Positions 18,836 to 26,512 of a stretch of DNA of 64,000 bases are shown in pieces. The stretch is from Sulfurimonas sp. GTDB lineage: Bacteria > Campylobacterota > Campylobacteria > Campylobacterales > Sulfurimonadaceae. Each line of letters begins with the position of its first letter. Within the stretch, counting starts at the first letter, position 1. The notes under the pieces were generated by a model, which did not search any database, was not told the DNA's origin, and saw only the letters and a list, made by a program, of their open reading frames with translations. The stretch covers positions 62,001-126,000 of the forward strand of contig NZ_JAQTOD010000004.1 in NCBI RefSeq assembly GCF_028713515.1. Direction: 5' to 3'. Both the position numbers and the translations under genes were made by a program.

Positions 18836-18875
18836 AATAGTTGAATTCACTCCTTTATTCTAAATCTACGGCACT

Positions 18876-18904
18876 ATTATACATATTGAGTGTAACAATG
18901 TCAA
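18876..18904 (-). promoter_or_regulatory. Consensus sigma-70 promoter of grpE-dnaK
   Basis: On the minus strand, TTGACA (18899-18904) is separated by exactly 17 bases from TATAAT (18876-18881). Both hexamers are perfect. No CIRCE element (TTAGCACTC-N9-GAGTGCTAA) overlaps it. Confidence 0.8.
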
Positions 18905-18923
18905 GTATATGTTTAGTTATTTC

Positions 18924-18951
18924 GATAAAGATAGTTGAGTCTATCTTTATC
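18924..18951. terminator. Perfect 11-bp inverted repeat between feoB and grpE
   Basis: GATAAAGATAG (18924-18934) pairs exactly with CTATCTTTATC (18941-18951) around a 6-base loop. It lies after the feoB stop and just upstream of the grpE promoter. It lacks a T-run. It could be a terminator for feoB, an operator, or both. Confidence 0.45.
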
Positions 18952-18984
18952 AATGTTGTTAAATAAGAGTATATTAAAGTTGCT

Positions 18985-21087
18985 TTAGTATCCAAGCAGT
19001 AGTAGTGAATGATAAGCGATAAAGGCAAGTGTCCATGCTGTTATAAATGTAAATAGTACCAAATAAACAGTGTATTTTTTTCCGCCTGCTTCTTTTGTAA
19101 ATACTGCTGTAGCAGCAATACAAGGCAAATAAACCATAACAAATACTATAAAAGCTATAGCGGAAGCAAATGGAATTTCTCTTGATATGATGTTCTTTAG
19201 GGCATCATCTTCCTCTTTTATTTCACTTCCTATTGAGTAGAGTACTCCCAAAGTAGAAACAATGACTTCTTTTGCTGCTAATCCGCTTAGTGTAGCTACA
19301 CTCATTCTCCAGTCAAAACCAAGAGGTTTAAAAATAGGCTCAATTGCTTTGCCAGCAAAACCTAAATATGTATTTTCCATAAGTTTTTTTTTCATCTCAT
19401 TTGAAATAATATTTTTATCTGCCTCTAGCGCAGTTTCTATTTTATTTGTATAGGCATCTTCTATTTGAATATTTTTTGGATATGAGCTAATAAACCATAT
19501 AAATATAGAAGCCATAAAAATAAATGTTCCAGCTTTTTTAAGATACATTATAGATTTCGAGTAGATAGTAAACCAAATAAGTTTTACGCTAGGAAGCCTG
19601 TATTTTGGCATCTCCATAACGAATGGTTCATCATCTCCGCGAAATACTGTCAATCTAAGCACTTTAGCGGCAATAAGGCCTAAGAATGCACCGCTCACAT
19701 AAATAGCAAAAAGTACATTTCCGGCAGACTCGGGTGTAAAAAATGCTCCAGCGAAAAGTACATAAACTGGGAGTCTGGCTCCGCAACTCATAAACCCTAT
19801 TATAAACATAGTAAGAAGTCTATCTCTCTCACTTTTTAGAGTTCGTGCAGCCATATAAGCAGGAATAGAGCAACCAAAACCAGTCACAAGTGGAATAAAA
19901 CTTTTGCCATGAAGACCAAATTTATGAAAAAAACCATCGAGTACAAATGCCACTCTTGCCATATAGCCGGTAGTTTCCAAAAGAGCGATACCTAAAAATA
20001 AAATCATGATATTCGGCAGAAATAGTAAAACCGTACCAACTCCGGCTATTATTCCATCAACTATAAGAGATTTTGCAGGTTTGTTTGTTATGAATTCTCC
20101 GGCTGTATCGCCCAAAAATTTAAAAAATGCTTCTATGTAATCCATAGGAACTTGACCAAGCGTAAAGGTAAGTTGAAACAATCCCCACATTAAAAATAGA
20201 AAAATAGGAATTCCTAGATATTTGTTTATCATTATTGAATCAATCTTTTGCGTAACAGAGGTTATATTTTTTTTATTATTTTTGATTACCTCAAGGCAAG
20301 CACCACGAGCAAAAGCATCTCTCTCGTCAGCAAATATTTCATTAGAATCTCTGTTTTTAAACTGAATATGTAGTTTCTCAAGGGTATTGTTTAAAAGTGG
20401 TAGCAACTCAGCGTAAATAGGTTCCTCATGAATCATCTTATAAATTGTTCTATCTTGTTTCAGCAACCCTATTGCCACGCTTCTGTTTGAGTGGTTTGTA
20501 AGTTTAAAATTTCTACTTTTCATAAATGAGACAAGCTCTTCTACTCTATCTTCTATTGCGTCACTGTAATAAAATTTAGGAGCTTTTTTTGGCTCTTTTA
20601 CTGTATGAATAATCATATCAACCATAACATCAAGGTTTGTCTTTTTCAAAGATGAGGTCTTGATACAATCAACTCCCAGCAGTTCGCTAAGCTCTTTTTC
20701 ATCAATAAAGACACCCTCTTTTATGGCTTCATCATCCATATTTAGAGCTACAACCATTCTTTTATCGAGTTCTAAAAGCTCACTTGTTAAAGATAAGTTT
20801 CGCTCCAAATTAGTAGAGTCTAGGACATTTAAAATTATGTCATACTCGCCTTCTATCAAAAACTCTTTTGTAACTTTCTCATCTTTGGCAAAGTCATCCA
20901 AAGAGTATGAACCAGGAAGATCTATAATATCTATTTTATATCCGTCTCTCAAAAGAGTAGCTTCTGCTTTCTCAACCGTAACGCCAGCAAAATTTCCCAC
21001 CTTTAGATTGGCTCCACTTATAGAATTTAGCAGATGACTCTTGCCAACATTTGGTTGCCCAACAAGGGCGACAACTATTTTTTTCAC
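18985..21087 (-). CDS. feoB: Ferrous iron transport protein B
   Basis: The 700-residue inner-membrane Fe(II) transporter has an N-terminal G domain: G1 GQPNVGKS, G3 DLPGSYSL, and G4 NMDD. A helical GDI region follows, then the membrane domain with two gate repeats; GFGCSIPAY and SCGARLPVY carry the conserved Cys residues. It overlaps feoA by 4 bases. A porin-like gene lies upstream of feoA in the same operon. Regulation by iron is supported by a Fur-box-like site before the porin gene. Confidence 0.96.
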   Translation of the reverse strand: MKKIVVALVGQPNVGKSHLLNSISGANLKVGNFAGVTVEKAEATLLRDGYKIDIIDLPGSYSLDDFAKDEKVTKEFLIEGEYDIILNVLDSTNLERNLSLTSELLELDKRMVVALNMDDEAIKEGVFIDEKELSELLGVDCIKTSSLKKTNLDVMVDMIIHTVKEPKKAPKFYYSDAIEDRVEELVSFMKSRNFKLTNHSNRSVAIGLLKQDRTIYKMIHEEPIYAELLPLLNNTLEKLHIQFKNRDSNEIFADERDAFARGACLEVIKNNKKNITSVTQKIDSIMINKYLGIPIFLFLMWGLFQLTFTLGQVPMDYIEAFFKFLGDTAGEFITNKPAKSLIVDGIIAGVGTVLLFLPNIMILFLGIALLETTGYMARVAFVLDGFFHKFGLHGKSFIPLVTGFGCSIPAYMAARTLKSERDRLLTMFIIGFMSCGARLPVYVLFAGAFFTPESAGNVLFAIYVSGAFLGLIAAKVLRLTVFRGDDEPFVMEMPKYRLPSVKLIWFTIYSKSIMYLKKAGTFIFMASIFIWFISSYPKNIQIEDAYTNKIETALEADKNIISNEMKKKLMENTYLGFAGKAIEPIFKPLGFDWRMSVATLSGLAAKEVIVSTLGVLYSIGSEIKEEDDALKNIISREIPFASAIAFIVFVMVYLPCIAATAVFTKEAGGKKYTVYLVLFTFITAWTLAFIAYHSLLLLGY

Positions 21088-21311
21088 TTTATCTCCTCAA
21101 CTTCTATCTGCTTGGCTTCTGAAGCTCTAAGAGCTACTTCTGCAGAACCGATTGATATTTTTATATTTTGTTTTCCAAGACTCTCTTCTAAAACTATTGC
21201 CTTTATATGTTTAGTTATCCCTAGAGCTCTTAGTCTTTTTTTAAGAATAGCATCTGCGTTTATCTCTTTAATTAGAACCTTCTTATCTGTTTGTACCTCT
21301 GATAGTAGCAT
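21084..21311 (-). CDS. feoA: Ferrous iron transport protein A
   Basis: The 75-residue SH3-like FeoA protein contains LRALGITKHIKAIVLEESLG and IKISIGSAEVALRASEAKQIEV, both typical. It is cytoplasmic and binds FeoB to support its transport activity. It starts 16 bases after the porin-like gene and overlaps feoB by 4 bases. Confidence 0.88.
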   Translation of the reverse strand: MLLSEVQTDKKVLIKEINADAILKKRLRALGITKHIKAIVLEESLGKQNIKISIGSAEVALRASEAKQIEVEEIK

Positions 21312-21327
21312 CTCTGTCTCCTATTGC

Positions 21328-22623
21328 TTAAAAATTATATTTGATGAAAATTCTTGCTCTGTTGTTTGTATTGCTTTGCTCGTCTTCTATTTTTGAGAGC
21401 ATCATTTCTATGTTTGCCTGTTTATTTAAGATATAGCTTGCACGAAAATCTGTCTCTTTTTTTGTTGTATCATCTACTCCTCGATAAAAATTAGCATGTG
21501 CTATGGCAATATTTGTTCCTTTAAAACCTACTTTTTCTAAATCAAACTCAACCCCAATTTTATAGGCGCTAACATCTCCTGCGCAGTTTGCAGTTTCTAC
21601 ATCCATAGATGTAAAGAGCGAATCTTTAGCCCCGCCAAAAAAATCTGCAGTTCCTCCATCATTTAAGCTTTCCTTATTTTTACCAGATTTGTTGTAAGCT
21701 AAGAACCACTTTAGTCCTATAGTTTCTGATTCAAGTTCTATAGCTGCACCATATATATCGCAGTCAACCTTTGCAGCATAGTCTATTTTGCTGTAGTTAT
21801 CTAATTTACCAATTGATTTTTCACTCATATATTGAGCCATTAAATTTATAGACATAGCATCTGATTTGTATGCTTTTATTGAGCCTTTCGTATAGTATGT
21901 ATCAAGCATTTTAGTTTGTCTATAAAACCATCCATCCAATGTGAAATTTTCACTTTCATAAGCTGCACCAATTATGAATAGTCTAGAGTTAATGGCTGAT
22001 GGATTGTCAGCAAAAAAATTCCCAAATGTTTCCGTGTTGTTAATAACCTCTCCGAGTTTGACAAATTTTGAGTGATCTGAGCTATTTTCCCATCCAGCCA
22101 TCCGTGATACAATCCCTGTTGTTAGCTTTAATTCTTTAGATGGTAGGTAATTTACTAGAGCAGCAGTAAAGAGATTTGGTATCATTCTTATGTCATCAGA
22201 GTTTATAAGCGGTAGATCAAGCTCCATTTGACCTAGTTTAATCTCCATATCATTGCTTGCATATTTTACAAACATTTCACCGAGCATTGAGTAGCCATCA
22301 CCATTTGGATTGTAATAATCATGGTCTTTTGAGCTTCTGTTTAAAATTGGATATACCATATAAAATGAAGTTTTTAGGTTTATTGCATACAGTGGGGTCG
22401 TTTCAAATGAAATTTTGCCACCAACTAGCAAATCTTCTGTGCCATTTCCTGCTTCATTGTGAGAGTTTGTTTGATAAAGTACTCTGGCTTGTCCTTTCAT
22501 TTCTCCTAATTTAAGTATTTCACTAAATTTTTTTGCTTCTGATGTGGGTTTTTCTAATATATCTTCTCCGGTCGCAAAAAGTGAAGTAACTGCAACAAAT
22601 AATAATATGGCTAATTTTTTCAT
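21328..22623 (-). CDS. Outer-membrane porin co-transcribed with feoAB
   Basis: The mature barrel comes from a 431-residue precursor starting MKKLAILLFVAVTSLFATG, a clear signal peptide. The protein ends RARIFIKYNF with a terminal Phe, and short beta-strand-like segments repeat throughout, as in OprD/major-outer-membrane porins of this phylum. ATG 22623 follows AGGAAACAAC; the frame reaches 22662 but lacks a ribosome site there. The feoA start is 16 bases away, and the promoter is overlapped by iron-box-like sequence. A role in letting iron across the outer membrane is inferred from this linkage only. Confidence 0.75.
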   Translation of the reverse strand: MKKLAILLFVAVTSLFATGEDILEKPTSEAKKFSEILKLGEMKGQARVLYQTNSHNEAGNGTEDLLVGGKISFETTPLYAINLKTSFYMVYPILNRSSKDHDYYNPNGDGYSMLGEMFVKYASNDMEIKLGQMELDLPLINSDDIRMIPNLFTAALVNYLPSKELKLTTGIVSRMAGWENSSDHSKFVKLGEVINNTETFGNFFADNPSAINSRLFIIGAAYESENFTLDGWFYRQTKMLDTYYTKGSIKAYKSDAMSINLMAQYMSEKSIGKLDNYSKIDYAAKVDCDIYGAAIELESETIGLKWFLAYNKSGKNKESLNDGGTADFFGGAKDSLFTSMDVETANCAGDVSAYKIGVEFDLEKVGFKGTNIAIAHANFYRGVDDTTKKETDFRASYILNKQANIEMMLSKIEDEQSNTNNRARIFIKYNF

Positions 22624-22662
22624 GTTGTTTCCTATATATCTAATTTTGAAAATCACTATCAA

Positions 22663-22712
22663 ATAATATAGAAATATTATCTATTTGTCAATGGTTTTGA
22701 TAATTATTTTCA
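22663..22712 (-). promoter_or_regulatory. Promoter with Fur-box-like site for porin-feoA-feoB
   Basis: On the minus strand TTGACA (22686-22691), 17 bases, then TATTAT (22663-22668). Six bases upstream of the -35, 22698-22712 reads TGATAATTATTTTCA on the + strand, 14 of 15 matches to the 7-1-7 Fur core TGATAATnATTATCA. A further 7-bp inverted repeat (ATAATAT/ATATTAT, 22663-22680) overlaps the -10. Iron-dependent repression by Fur is the likely meaning. Confidence 0.65.
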
Positions 22713-22781
22713 ATATTAAGTTTTAGTGATAATTTATTCGCCTAGGCAAGGAAAGAAGAAGGGCGATATAAAGAGTATTTT

Positions 22782-23360
22782 CTAGGATATTTGGCTTGCA
22801 TCAGCGAGCGCGATGCAGAAGAGAACTGTATTGTTATTTTTCTCGGCAATTTCAATGGCTTGAGTGAAAGTTAAGCCTGTTGTAATGATGTCGTCTACCA
22901 AAATAAGATCTTGATTTTTAAGATTTTTTAGTTCAAAATTTCTGGGATTTAGAAGTCTAAACTCTCTGCTTTTGCCCGAGTATGAGACGCTGTTTTTAGC
23001 TCTAAGTCTGTTAAATTGTGGCTTTATAAATTTAGAGCAAAGCGCTTTGTTTAAAATAGCTGTGTGAGAATAACCACTTTTTATGCCATCATCTATTGCT
23101 ATGGATACAACTTTGTTCTCAAACTTGAACTCAGATGCAAATTTTTTTAGAGAGTTTTTGGCGAGAATGGAGTAGATGTAGTAGCCGATATCTGTATGTT
23201 TTGTATGAAGCAGCTCTTTTAATTCGCTATATTTGTAAAAAGAGATAACTTCTATTTTGTTGAGAATTTTTCGTTTGTAGATTGATGGAGCAAGAAAGGA
23301 TATTTGGCAATTTTTACAGATGTGTTCAAACGATAAGTTCTCACACAGCATACATTTCAC
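22782..23360 (-). CDS. ComF-family phosphoribosyltransferase-like protein
   Basis: The 192-residue protein has an N-terminal zinc-type Cys cluster (CMLCENLSFEHICKNC) and a C-terminal PRPP-binding loop (DLILVDDIITTGLTFTQA). This is the layout of ComF, which takes part in DNA uptake in competent bacteria and may act at the single-strand DNA stage. In H. pylori the homologue is needed for transformation. It lies 14 bases after lepA in the same direction and is probably read through from it. Confidence 0.8.
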   Translation of the reverse strand: MKCMLCENLSFEHICKNCQISFLAPSIYKRKILNKIEVISFYKYSELKELLHTKHTDIGYYIYSILAKNSLKKFASEFKFENKVVSIAIDDGIKSGYSHTAILNKALCSKFIKPQFNRLRAKNSVSYSGKSREFRLLNPRNFELKNLKNQDLILVDDIITTGLTFTQAIEIAEKNNNTVLFCIALADASQIS

Positions 23361-23374
23361 AAAAAATCTCTTCT

Positions 23375-25165
23375 CTAATCCATCTTTAAAATAGACATAA
23401 ATGCCTCTTGAGGGAGATTTACTTTGCCTATAGACTTCATTCTTTTTTTACCAGCTTTTTGCTTGTCTAAGAGTTTTCTTTTACGAGTAATATCCCCACC
23501 ATAGCACTTAGCAGTAACATTTTTGCCCATACTTTTTACAGTTTCTCTTGCAATAACTTTGTTACCCAAAGATGCTTGAATGGCTACCTCAAAAAGTTGT
23601 CTTGGAACCAGCTCTTTCATATTTTTAACCAAAATCCGTCCGCGATAATCAGCTGAAGTTCTAGGAACTATAACGCTTAGTGCATCAACGACTTCGCCAG
23701 CAACTCTAACATCAAGTTTAACCAAATCACCCTCTACAAATCCAATTGGCTCGTAGTCAAAACTAGCATATCCTTTAGAGATTGACTTTAACTTATCATA
23801 AAAATCAACCACGATTTCATTCATTGGCAGAGAATACTCAAGCATAACTCTCTGCTCATTTAGGTAGGTCATCTTATCTTGCGCGCCTCTTTTGGCTACT
23901 AAAAGATTTATAACATTTCCGAGATATTCAGCTGGAGTTATAATCGTAGCTTTTACATAAGGCTCTTCAATTCTTGCAATATAGTTTACCGCAGGAAGCT
24001 CCGATGGATTTTGAACTTCAACCATCTCACTACTTGTAAGAAATACATGATAAACAACAGATGGAGCAGTAGCGATTAAGTCAAGTGCAAACTCTCTCTC
24101 CAATCTCTCAACAATTACCTCCATGTGAAGCATCCCTAAGAATCCTACACGAAATCCAAACCCAAGCGCGATAGATGTTTCAGGCTCATAGCTAAGAGAG
24201 CTATCATTTAGTTTTAGTTTATCAAGCGCATCACGAAGCTCTTCAAACCTATCTGTGTCAATCGGATAGAGTCCTGCAAACACAAAAGGTTTTGCAGGCT
24301 CATATTTTAAAGCTGGCTCTTTTGTTGGATTTTTAGCATCTGTTATTGTGTCGCCAACATTTACAACCCTAACATCTTTAAGCCCAAGCACAACTATTCC
24401 GATTTCCCCAGTTTTTATAGAGTTAGTTTTTTGTCTTTTGAGTGGATGAGGATACATCAAATCAAGAACAGGATGCTCTTCATTGTTGCTCATAAGTTTT
24501 ACAATTTGACCCTTCTTTATCTCTCCATCAAAAACACGCACAAGTGCTACAGTTCCAAGATAGGAGTCAAACCAACTATCATAGATAATTGCTTTTGTAG
24601 TAGCATTTTCATCTCCAACTGGTGCTGGGATACGGTCAACTATTGCGTCGATAAGTTCACGAATCCCAACACCTGTTTTTGCAGAGACTAAAATCGCATC
24701 AGTTGCGTCTATGCCGATACTTGTTTCTATCTCTTGTGCTACTTTATCAGGGTCAGCCGCTGGAAGGTCTATCTTGTTTATGACGGGAATCAACTCTAAG
24801 TTGTTGTCCATCGCCAAATAGACATTTGCGATAGTTTGTGCCTCAACACCTTGCGCTGCATCCACAATAAGAAGCGCACCATCACTTGAAGCAAGCGATT
24901 TGCTAACTTCATACGAAAAATCAACATGACCAGGAGTATCGATAAGATTTAGGATGTAATGCTCGCCATCTTTTACATAATCAAGCCTAACGCTTTGAGC
25001 TTTTATGGTGATACCACGCTCTTTTTCTATATCCATGGTGTCCATCATCTGTTTTGTGAGTTCTCTATCACTTACGGCGCCACACTCTTGGATAATGCGA
25101 TCCGCTAAAGTGCTTTTACCATGGTCTATGTGCGCAATGATGGAGAAATTTCTAATATTTTTCAA
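23375..25165 (-). CDS. lepA: Elongation factor 4 (LepA)
   Basis: The 596-residue translational GTPase contains [14 protein letters not shown] (G1), [12 protein letters not shown] (G3) and [10 protein letters not shown] (G4). It keeps the LepA-specific C-terminal domain ending [15 protein letters not shown]. It binds the ribosome and affects translocation or initiation under stress. Length is normal. It lies 11 bases after prs and 14 before the comF-like gene, giving a prs-lepA-comF run. Confidence 0.96.
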
Positions 25166-25176
25166 TAATTTTCCCT

Positions 25177-26103
25177 TTATGAAAAAAGTGAGTTAACACT
25201 CTCATTGTGGTAAACCCTGCGAATTACCTCGGCAAAAAGAGGAGCAACCGATAAAACTACAATCTTGTCATGTGGCTTTGTAACTAGTGTGTTTGTGATG
25301 ATAAGCTCATCAAGTTCGCCATTTTCTAGGTTTTCAAAAGCTTTACCGCTTAAAACTCCATGAGTAGCACATGCCATAACAGAATTTGCTCCCTTGTTTT
25401 TAAGCGCTGTTGCCGCTTTCACCATGGTTCCAGCAGTATCAACCATATCATCAATCATGATTACATCTTTACCTTCAACATCACCGATAATATTCATAAC
25501 TTCACTCTCATTGGCTTTTTCACGGCGTTTATCAACGATTACCATATCAAGTCCCATTCTTTGTGCGAAGTATCTAGCTCTTGCAACACCACCGATATCA
25601 GGAGATGCAATGATAGGATTTTTAAGATTTTTACTTTTTATGTAAGTTTCGAATGTGATAGAACCATAAAGATTATCAACAGGGATGTTAAAAAATCCTT
25701 GGATTTGTCCAGCATGAAGGTCGATTGTTACAACTCTGTTTATCCCAGCAGCTTCATACATATCGGCCACAAGTCTAGCAGTGATAGGAACTCGAGGAGC
25801 GGCTTTTCGGTCTTGTCGTGCGTATCCAAAATATGGAACAACTGCCGTGATAGTAGAAGCGGATGAGCGACGAAGAGCATCTGTCATGATTAGAAGTTCC
25901 ATCAAATTATCGTTAGATGGAATTCCAGTTGATTGGACAATAAAAACATCGCGACCACGGACACTCTCGGCAATTTGAACAGAGATTTCGCCATCACTAA
26001 ATTTTTTTATATCAGCATTTGCTAATGGTACATCTAATAGTTGACAAATCTCTTTTGCAAACTCTCTACTAGCAGAACCAGCAAAAATTTTATAACCACG
26101 CAT
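25177..26103 (-). CDS. prs: Ribose-phosphate pyrophosphokinase
   Basis: The 308-residue PRPP synthetase shows [19 protein letters not shown], the ATP loop, [32 protein letters not shown] and the PRPP loop [14 protein letters not shown]. It makes PRPP from ribose 5-phosphate and ATP for purines, pyrimidines, His, Trp and NAD. It is the last chromosomal gene before the left end of the integrated element; its own promoter must lie in the 250 bases between. Confidence 0.97.
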
Positions 26104-26359
26104 GGGATTCCTTCTTGGAAAAAATTAATTTGCAATTATATATAAAGAGTGCTGAGGGGTTGTTAAAACTAACTTTAGCTTAGCGCATTGCCAACATAAA
26201 TGTCTATAAGTAAATACATAATCACAATAAGTATATGCAAATAGAGTTAGAAAGATTGATAAGTCAATTAGATTGTTTTAAAAAAGTGTGTATTAAAAAA
26301 AGTAATACTAGAAAAATATTTTAGCTACCATAGAAATTTAAGACTCTGAAATGGCGTGT

Positions 26360-26397
26360 TTTAGGGGTTATAAATGTGGTGGCTCCGAATACTGGAG
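26360..26397. repeat. attL, left 38-bp attachment repeat
   Basis: These 38 bases are identical to 33389-33426. The last 17 (26381-26397) duplicate the 3' end of tRNA-Asn including the encoded CCA. Flanking bases differ at both ends. Confidence 0.85.
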
Positions 26398-26512
26398 CTA
26401 ACTTTATAAACTAAACGATACCATCAAATACCGTATTTACGGAGTTTTCAAAATATATAATTTTTTTAAAAATGGATTTGGTGCTAATAAAATGCACCGA
26501 GATGGCACCGAG
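26394..26512. repeat. 119-bp repeat, left copy
   Basis: It is about 92% identical, without gaps, to 28552-28670; most differences are transitions. It contains a 6-1-6 perfect palindrome (26426-26438) and two GCACCGAG boxes 11 bases apart (26494-26512). It starts with the last 4 bases of the attachment core. Confidence 0.8.

Follow-up and report, generated by a model that had tools for sequence, protein, structure and literature searches.

The passage of free Fe(II) across the outer membrane is usually credited to general porins. In Acidithiobacillus ferrooxidans and A. thiooxidans, the feoPABC locus places a putative porin, FeoP, directly before feoABC and behind a Fur box, and it has been proposed that Fe(II) reaches the periplasm through FeoP (Osorio et al., 2008, PMC2631029; PMC2621215). 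In Geobacter sulfurreducens, an iron role was proposed from comparative genomics for an operon with a Fur box and the order porin-feoA-feoA-feoB2, whose porin is of the OprB family (PF04966) and is described there as absent from other delta-proteobacteria (Rodionov et al., 2004, PMC545781). The Francisella proteins FupA/FupB are described as outer-membrane proteins of high-affinity Fe(II) transport that form pores in bilayers (PMC7432831), and OmpC of E. coli as a porin working with Feo in ferrous uptake (PMC7315122). The locus considered here lies in a 64,000-nucleotide stretch of Sulfurimonas sp. contig NZ_JAQTOD010000004.1 (hereafter the window), where a gene for an OprD-type porin stands directly before feoA and feoB. 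This unit is probably repressed by Fur, with the porin serving as a dedicated outer-membrane channel for Fe(II), a reading to which the gene order, the promoter and a comparison of relatives all point.

The three genes lie on the minus strand and are flanked by comF and grpE (window 18850-22781). The porin gene (21328..22623) runs from an ATG at 22623 to a stop ending at 21328 and encodes 431 amino acids with a signal peptide, read by eye, and a C-terminal Phe. Its listed open reading frame starts at a TTG at 22662, but the ATG, which is preceded by a ribosome-binding-like AGGA read from the sequence (22630..22633), suits the signal peptide better by eye. An earlier note on this DNA had placed the porin stop 16 bases from feoA, and this spacing stands, with the feoA ATG at 21311 and a ribosome-binding-like AGGAG (21318..21322, also read from the sequence) within the 16-nucleotide gap. 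The feoA gene (21084..21311; 75 amino acids; PF04023, 49.2 bits) ends at 21084 and overlaps by four nucleotides with feoB (18985..21087; 700 amino acids), which begins at a GTG at 21087 and scores 625.9 bits against TIGR00437 (cut-off 315.65). By profile both proteins are ordinary, FeoB exceeding the equivalog cut-off with FeoA alongside it; no feoC was noticed at the window locus, where no search with a feoC model was made. A site scan of the minus strand found no terminator-like site in the porin-feoA interval. Since no Fur-like box was found in the window's 16-nucleotide gap either, feoAB here must be transcribed from the porin promoter or by read-through that starts farther upstream.

The promoter scan places a -35 hexamer, TTGACA (22686..22691), and a -10 hexamer, TATTAT (22663..22668), on the minus strand with a 17-nucleotide spacer (22691..22663), in agreement with the promoter proposed in the earlier note and with 11 of 12 consensus positions. 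The two other elements of that proposal are likewise present: a palindromic Fur-like box six nucleotides upstream of the -35 (box 1, 22698..22712), where TGATAATTATTTTCA differs from the core TGATAATNATTATCA by one mismatch and hence matches 14 of its 15 positions, and an inverted repeat over the -10, read by eye as ATAATAT-TTCT-ATATTAT (22663..22680). A second Fur-like box, TGATAGTGATTTTCA, which had not been reported, lies just downstream of the -10 (box 2, 22647..22661) with two mismatches to the strict core and one to TGAWAATNATTWTCA, a degenerate palindrome picked after the window had been seen. The promoter thus has a Fur-like box on each side, no strand being assigned to either box or to the repeat. 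Exact TGAWAATNATTWTCA arises in none of 2000 shuffles of the 158-nucleotide intergenic stretch, and box 1 is its sole exact occurrence in the 2.0-Mb genome, which holds one Fur-family gene. The porin promoter also accounts for two of the 11 genomic places within one mismatch of TGAWAATNATTWTCA, the others lying mostly inside reading frames by eye, and it is the top promoter-like site within 20000-26500. As classes, these sites are not enriched: the 11 genome-wide places compare with 13 for a backward control pattern, Fur-like sites in the window at up to three mismatches number 17 against 12.3 expected, and promoter-like sites across 20000-26500 do not exceed shuffles (16 against 23.6). Taken with the relatives, the features of this locus make an operon under Fur control well supported, and a single transcript and binding by Fur would be expected from it.

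The pairing was followed in the upstream DNA of 61 feoB loci from 60 genomes, comprising the window and 60 further stretches, of which at least three (L066, L076 and L078) are too short upstream for full judgement. At 23 of these loci, which span eight families, feoA is immediately preceded by a porin reading frame. At one further locus (L045:2943-3341, genome G042), a C-terminal porin-like frame of 132 amino acids overlaps feoA and may be what is left of a linked porin after decay or a frameshift. The idea that the nearest FeoB relatives share the window's porin was rejected, as a porin lies beside feo genes at only three of 31 named loci, and there it is MOMP-like (PF02521), not OprD (L144:8114-9226, L166:1324-2436 and L161:4282-5400). 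These three loci, of the Sulfurospirillum type, carry the MOMP-like porin directly after feoB, or have the order porin-DUF2325-feoA-feoB.

The linked OprD-type porins belong together by descent. A tree of 73 OprD-type porins gathers every one of the 20 linked rows, along with 14 unlinked ones, into a single set of 34 (support 96), and in a more careful tree of 63 rows, made after ten long or partial rows had been set aside, a 32-row clade lies on one side of a branch supported at 93/97. Some of the unlinked members sit at contig ends, as in G007, where the porin contig stops about 30 nucleotides past the porin and the feoA contig opens at feoA. Fur-like boxes with at most two mismatches follow the clade: they lie upstream of 15 of the 22 assessable linked porins (the L045 fragment being included and scored as a miss) and of 2 of 39 other OprD porins (Fisher p = 2e-7), and the unlinked clade members also exceed the latter (6/13 against 2/39; Fisher p = 0.002). 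Fresh genomes gave the same picture. When 121 genomes of the phylum were searched with an alignment model, 62 places were listed, and 20 of these were fetched, none from the earlier 60 genomes, with a clade cut of E <= 1e-74 set by eye before neighbours were inspected. Seven of 13 clade matches stand directly upstream of feoA, with gaps of 1-13 nucleotides, and 10 of the 13 have a Fur-like box, whereas the lower-scoring OprD matches have neither (0/6 for feoA and 0/6 for the box); a partial match, L235, with neither feoA nor a box, is outside both counts. That the porin and feoAB are chance neighbours, with boxes that act on the porin only or are accidents of AT-rich sequence, would fit the genome-wide tally of one-mismatch sites, which does not rise above its control. 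Such an accident is nonetheless very improbable given the 16-nucleotide gap, the feoA/feoB overlap, the clade-specific boxes and a pairing that recurs both in the first sample and in fresh genomes.

The window porin matches PF03573 (OprD) at 39 bits, above the cut-off of 25; no match to OprB (PF04966) was found, OprD being alone at E values up to 1, and neither the porin nor FeoA had a model in NCBIfam. The genome contains five OprD-type matches. Because a sequence search of the PDB with the window porin gave weak OprD-family matches (best E 0.004), a fold search was used. An AlphaFold2 model built from a 35-row alignment is an 18-strand barrel (predicted local distance difference test, pLDDT, 82.5; predicted template modelling score, pTM, 0.82), for which Foldseek ranks Occ/OprD porins first and the best VIA-align match is an Occ/OprD porin at Z 35.6 over 358 residues and 2.6 Å. 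Known Occ porins have a basic ladder, and carboxylates or basic amino acids are their usual substrates. The feo-linked clade departs from this in charge, measured as whole-protein net charge per 100 amino acids, not as the charge of the pore lumen. Its median is -7.1 against -2.2 for other OprD porins, and a comparison within each of the 20 genomes that contain both kinds finds the clade member the more acidic every time (Wilcoxon p = 2e-6, a test that ignores kinship). A clade signature, DTPLADSDDIRM, is located between strands 5 and 6, where the constriction loop L3 lies. These properties bear on the possibility that the porin, though regulated in concert with feoAB, serves the uptake of an iron chelate, or of an organic acid released when iron is limiting, and not that of free Fe(II). 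The fold neighbours, which are carboxylate and amino-acid porins, and the lack of strong acidity in the window porin itself lend this idea something, but anionic substrates suit so acidic a clade badly and FeoB, as is established for Feo systems, takes free Fe(II), so that the idea appears improbable.

The partners of related porins may be informative about substrate. Sister OprD porins stand directly before a DUF485-ActP pair, ActP being an acetate symporter, at 16 of 38 loci with enough downstream sequence (L021, L022, L024, L025, L029, L030, L031, L105, L108, L110, L112, L117, L118, L128, L131 and L133), and this pair directly follows none of 12 clade porins. The pairing suggests that OprD-type porins in this order head operons of matching inner-membrane transporters. 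Away from feoA, members of the feo-linked clade have other neighbours: CbiM, for cobalt/nickel uptake, lies beside four of them (L023, L121, L124 and L223) and beside no non-clade porin in the 72 loci searched; L121 adjoins a TonB receptor as well; and two fresh members, L229 and L233 (G080 and G082), stand 106 nucleotides before a non-heme ferritin gene. From these neighbours it could be argued that the acidic clade consists of general divalent-metal porins (Fe2+, Co2+/Ni2+) that are merely Fur-controlled, with iron as one of several substrates. This is a possible but less likely account, since feoA is by far the commonest partner (23 of 61 feoB loci; 7 of 13 fresh clade matches) and most linked members have Fur-like boxes. 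A dedicated Fe(II) channel is still preferred, yet to describe the substrate as "ferrous iron only" may be too restrictive, because the window porin is only mildly acidic and clade members occur near ferritin, CbiM and a TonB receptor.

Several observations weigh against a dedicated Fe(II) porin transcribed with feoAB, and the first of them concern the window porin itself. Its net charge is only mildly acidic (-2.4 to -2.8 per 100 amino acids) and lies within the range of the genome's other OprD-type porins (-0.9 to -3.6), being no more acidic than two of them; it is without the clade residues D141, D346 and E396; and it forms a long branch (1.8), with 21-28% identity to all alignment rows but one. 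One fresh clade member, L226, is likewise not acidic (+1.2). Other points concern the pairing. No upstream porin gene is present at 38 of the 61 feoB loci, one of which holds a mere fragment, and in three of the 23 linked porins the reading frame is broken (L063, L081 and L089/L010, in G031, G033 and G052), which makes them either pseudogenes or products of sequencing errors. On a tree of FeoA and the first part of FeoB, made by a quick method from 231 columns, linkage flips often, with 17 changes against a shuffled mean of 21.1. Eight linked loci (L047, L049, L055, L056, L062, L069, L075 and L097) carry a further box in a longer porin-feoA gap, so a single transcript is not universal among the relatives. 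Finally, the genome has a second feoAB of the usual genus type on contig C2 (L039/L100, G000:C2:81650-83623), which lacks a porin. This copy adjoins pssA, as the feoAB of the genus does in many loci, and no Fur-like site with fewer than four mismatches lies upstream of its feoA. The genome also has three TonB plug genes.

The two copies appear to have different histories. On the same tree, the window FeoAB groups with FeoAB of the Sulfurospirillaceae (99) and the C2 copy with the genus; G055 and S. diekertiae fall together at near-zero distance, which places Sulfurospirillum in the same order. The nearest kin of the window porin, at 52% identity, is the porin of G052, whose FeoAB falls in yet another clade, and the pairing in the window therefore seems to have been rebuilt. 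In G010 and G019 (L198 and L203), comF lies next to grpE without intervening feo genes. Judged from these sequences, the window unit seems to have been assembled separately and inserted between comF and grpE as a second Feo system, which would be a second sign of joint selection on the porin and FeoAB. No indication of recent foreign origin was seen in G+C content (porin 0.337, feoB 0.347, window 0.348).

In the mechanism proposed, the OprD-type outer-membrane channel, FeoA and FeoB would all be made from one Fur-repressed transcript. Under iron scarcity, Fur would leave the two boxes flanking the promoter; the porin, once inserted in the outer membrane, would admit Fe(II) to the periplasm, and FeoB, helped by FeoA, would pump it inward. 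The earlier note had placed the porin at the head of the feoA-feoB operon behind a Fur-box-like promoter and had suggested a dedicated route for Fe(II). Of this, the operon and its control by Fur stand on the sequence and the relatives, and the comparison ties the porin family to Fe(II) uptake, while passage of Fe(II) and a preference for it stay at the level of what the porin may be expected to do. More broadly, there is perhaps an even chance that the OprD-type porins of Campylobacterales include a separate, acidic branch specialised for transition-metal cations and above all for Fe(II), a branch that is controlled by metal starvation, has repeatedly been joined to FeoAB and sometimes to ferritin or CbiM, and is sister to a branch joined to ActP. 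If this is true, each operon would have a porin chosen to suit its inner-membrane transporter, and the ActP pairing of the sister group suggests a general rule by which the substrate of a porin could be assigned from its operon partner. A Fur-controlled porin within a feoAB operon, with its partner kept across families, is a direct and genetically testable candidate for the entry of Fe(II).

In the literature surveyed, with subscription papers outside its scope, no report of a porin-feoAB arrangement in Campylobacterota was found, and the word "porin" does not occur in the main text of two papers on Feo evolution (PMC8749426, PMC10353542). Among the described systems, the likeness to FupA/FupB lies in an outer-membrane role in Fe(II) transport, by description alone. 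OmpC differs in being a general porin under EnvZ/OmpR, and is not described as a member of a feo operon (PMC7315122). The Occ/OprD porins of Pseudomonas and Acinetobacter (OccK, OccD and OccAB), whose structures have been solved, share PF03573 and the 18-strand barrel with the window porin (Z 31.6-35.6 over 331-368 residues), but have 13-17% identity to it and differ in gene context and Fur boxes. The Geobacter operon similarly brings together a Fur box, a porin and feoAB, whereas the porin of the window is of the OprD type and recurs within one order. The arrangement resembles that of FeoP, since in the window too the porin immediately precedes a feoA of like orientation and has a predicted Fur-like box ahead; FeoP, however, is described as a member of the OprB family and the window porin belongs to OprD (PF03573). 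An iron-controlled pairing of a porin with feoAB has already been proposed, for Acidithiobacillus FeoP and for Geobacter, both with OprB-family porins. What is new here is the OprD type of the porin, its recurrence in Campylobacterales, the clade-specific Fur boxes and charge, and the sister group paired with ActP.

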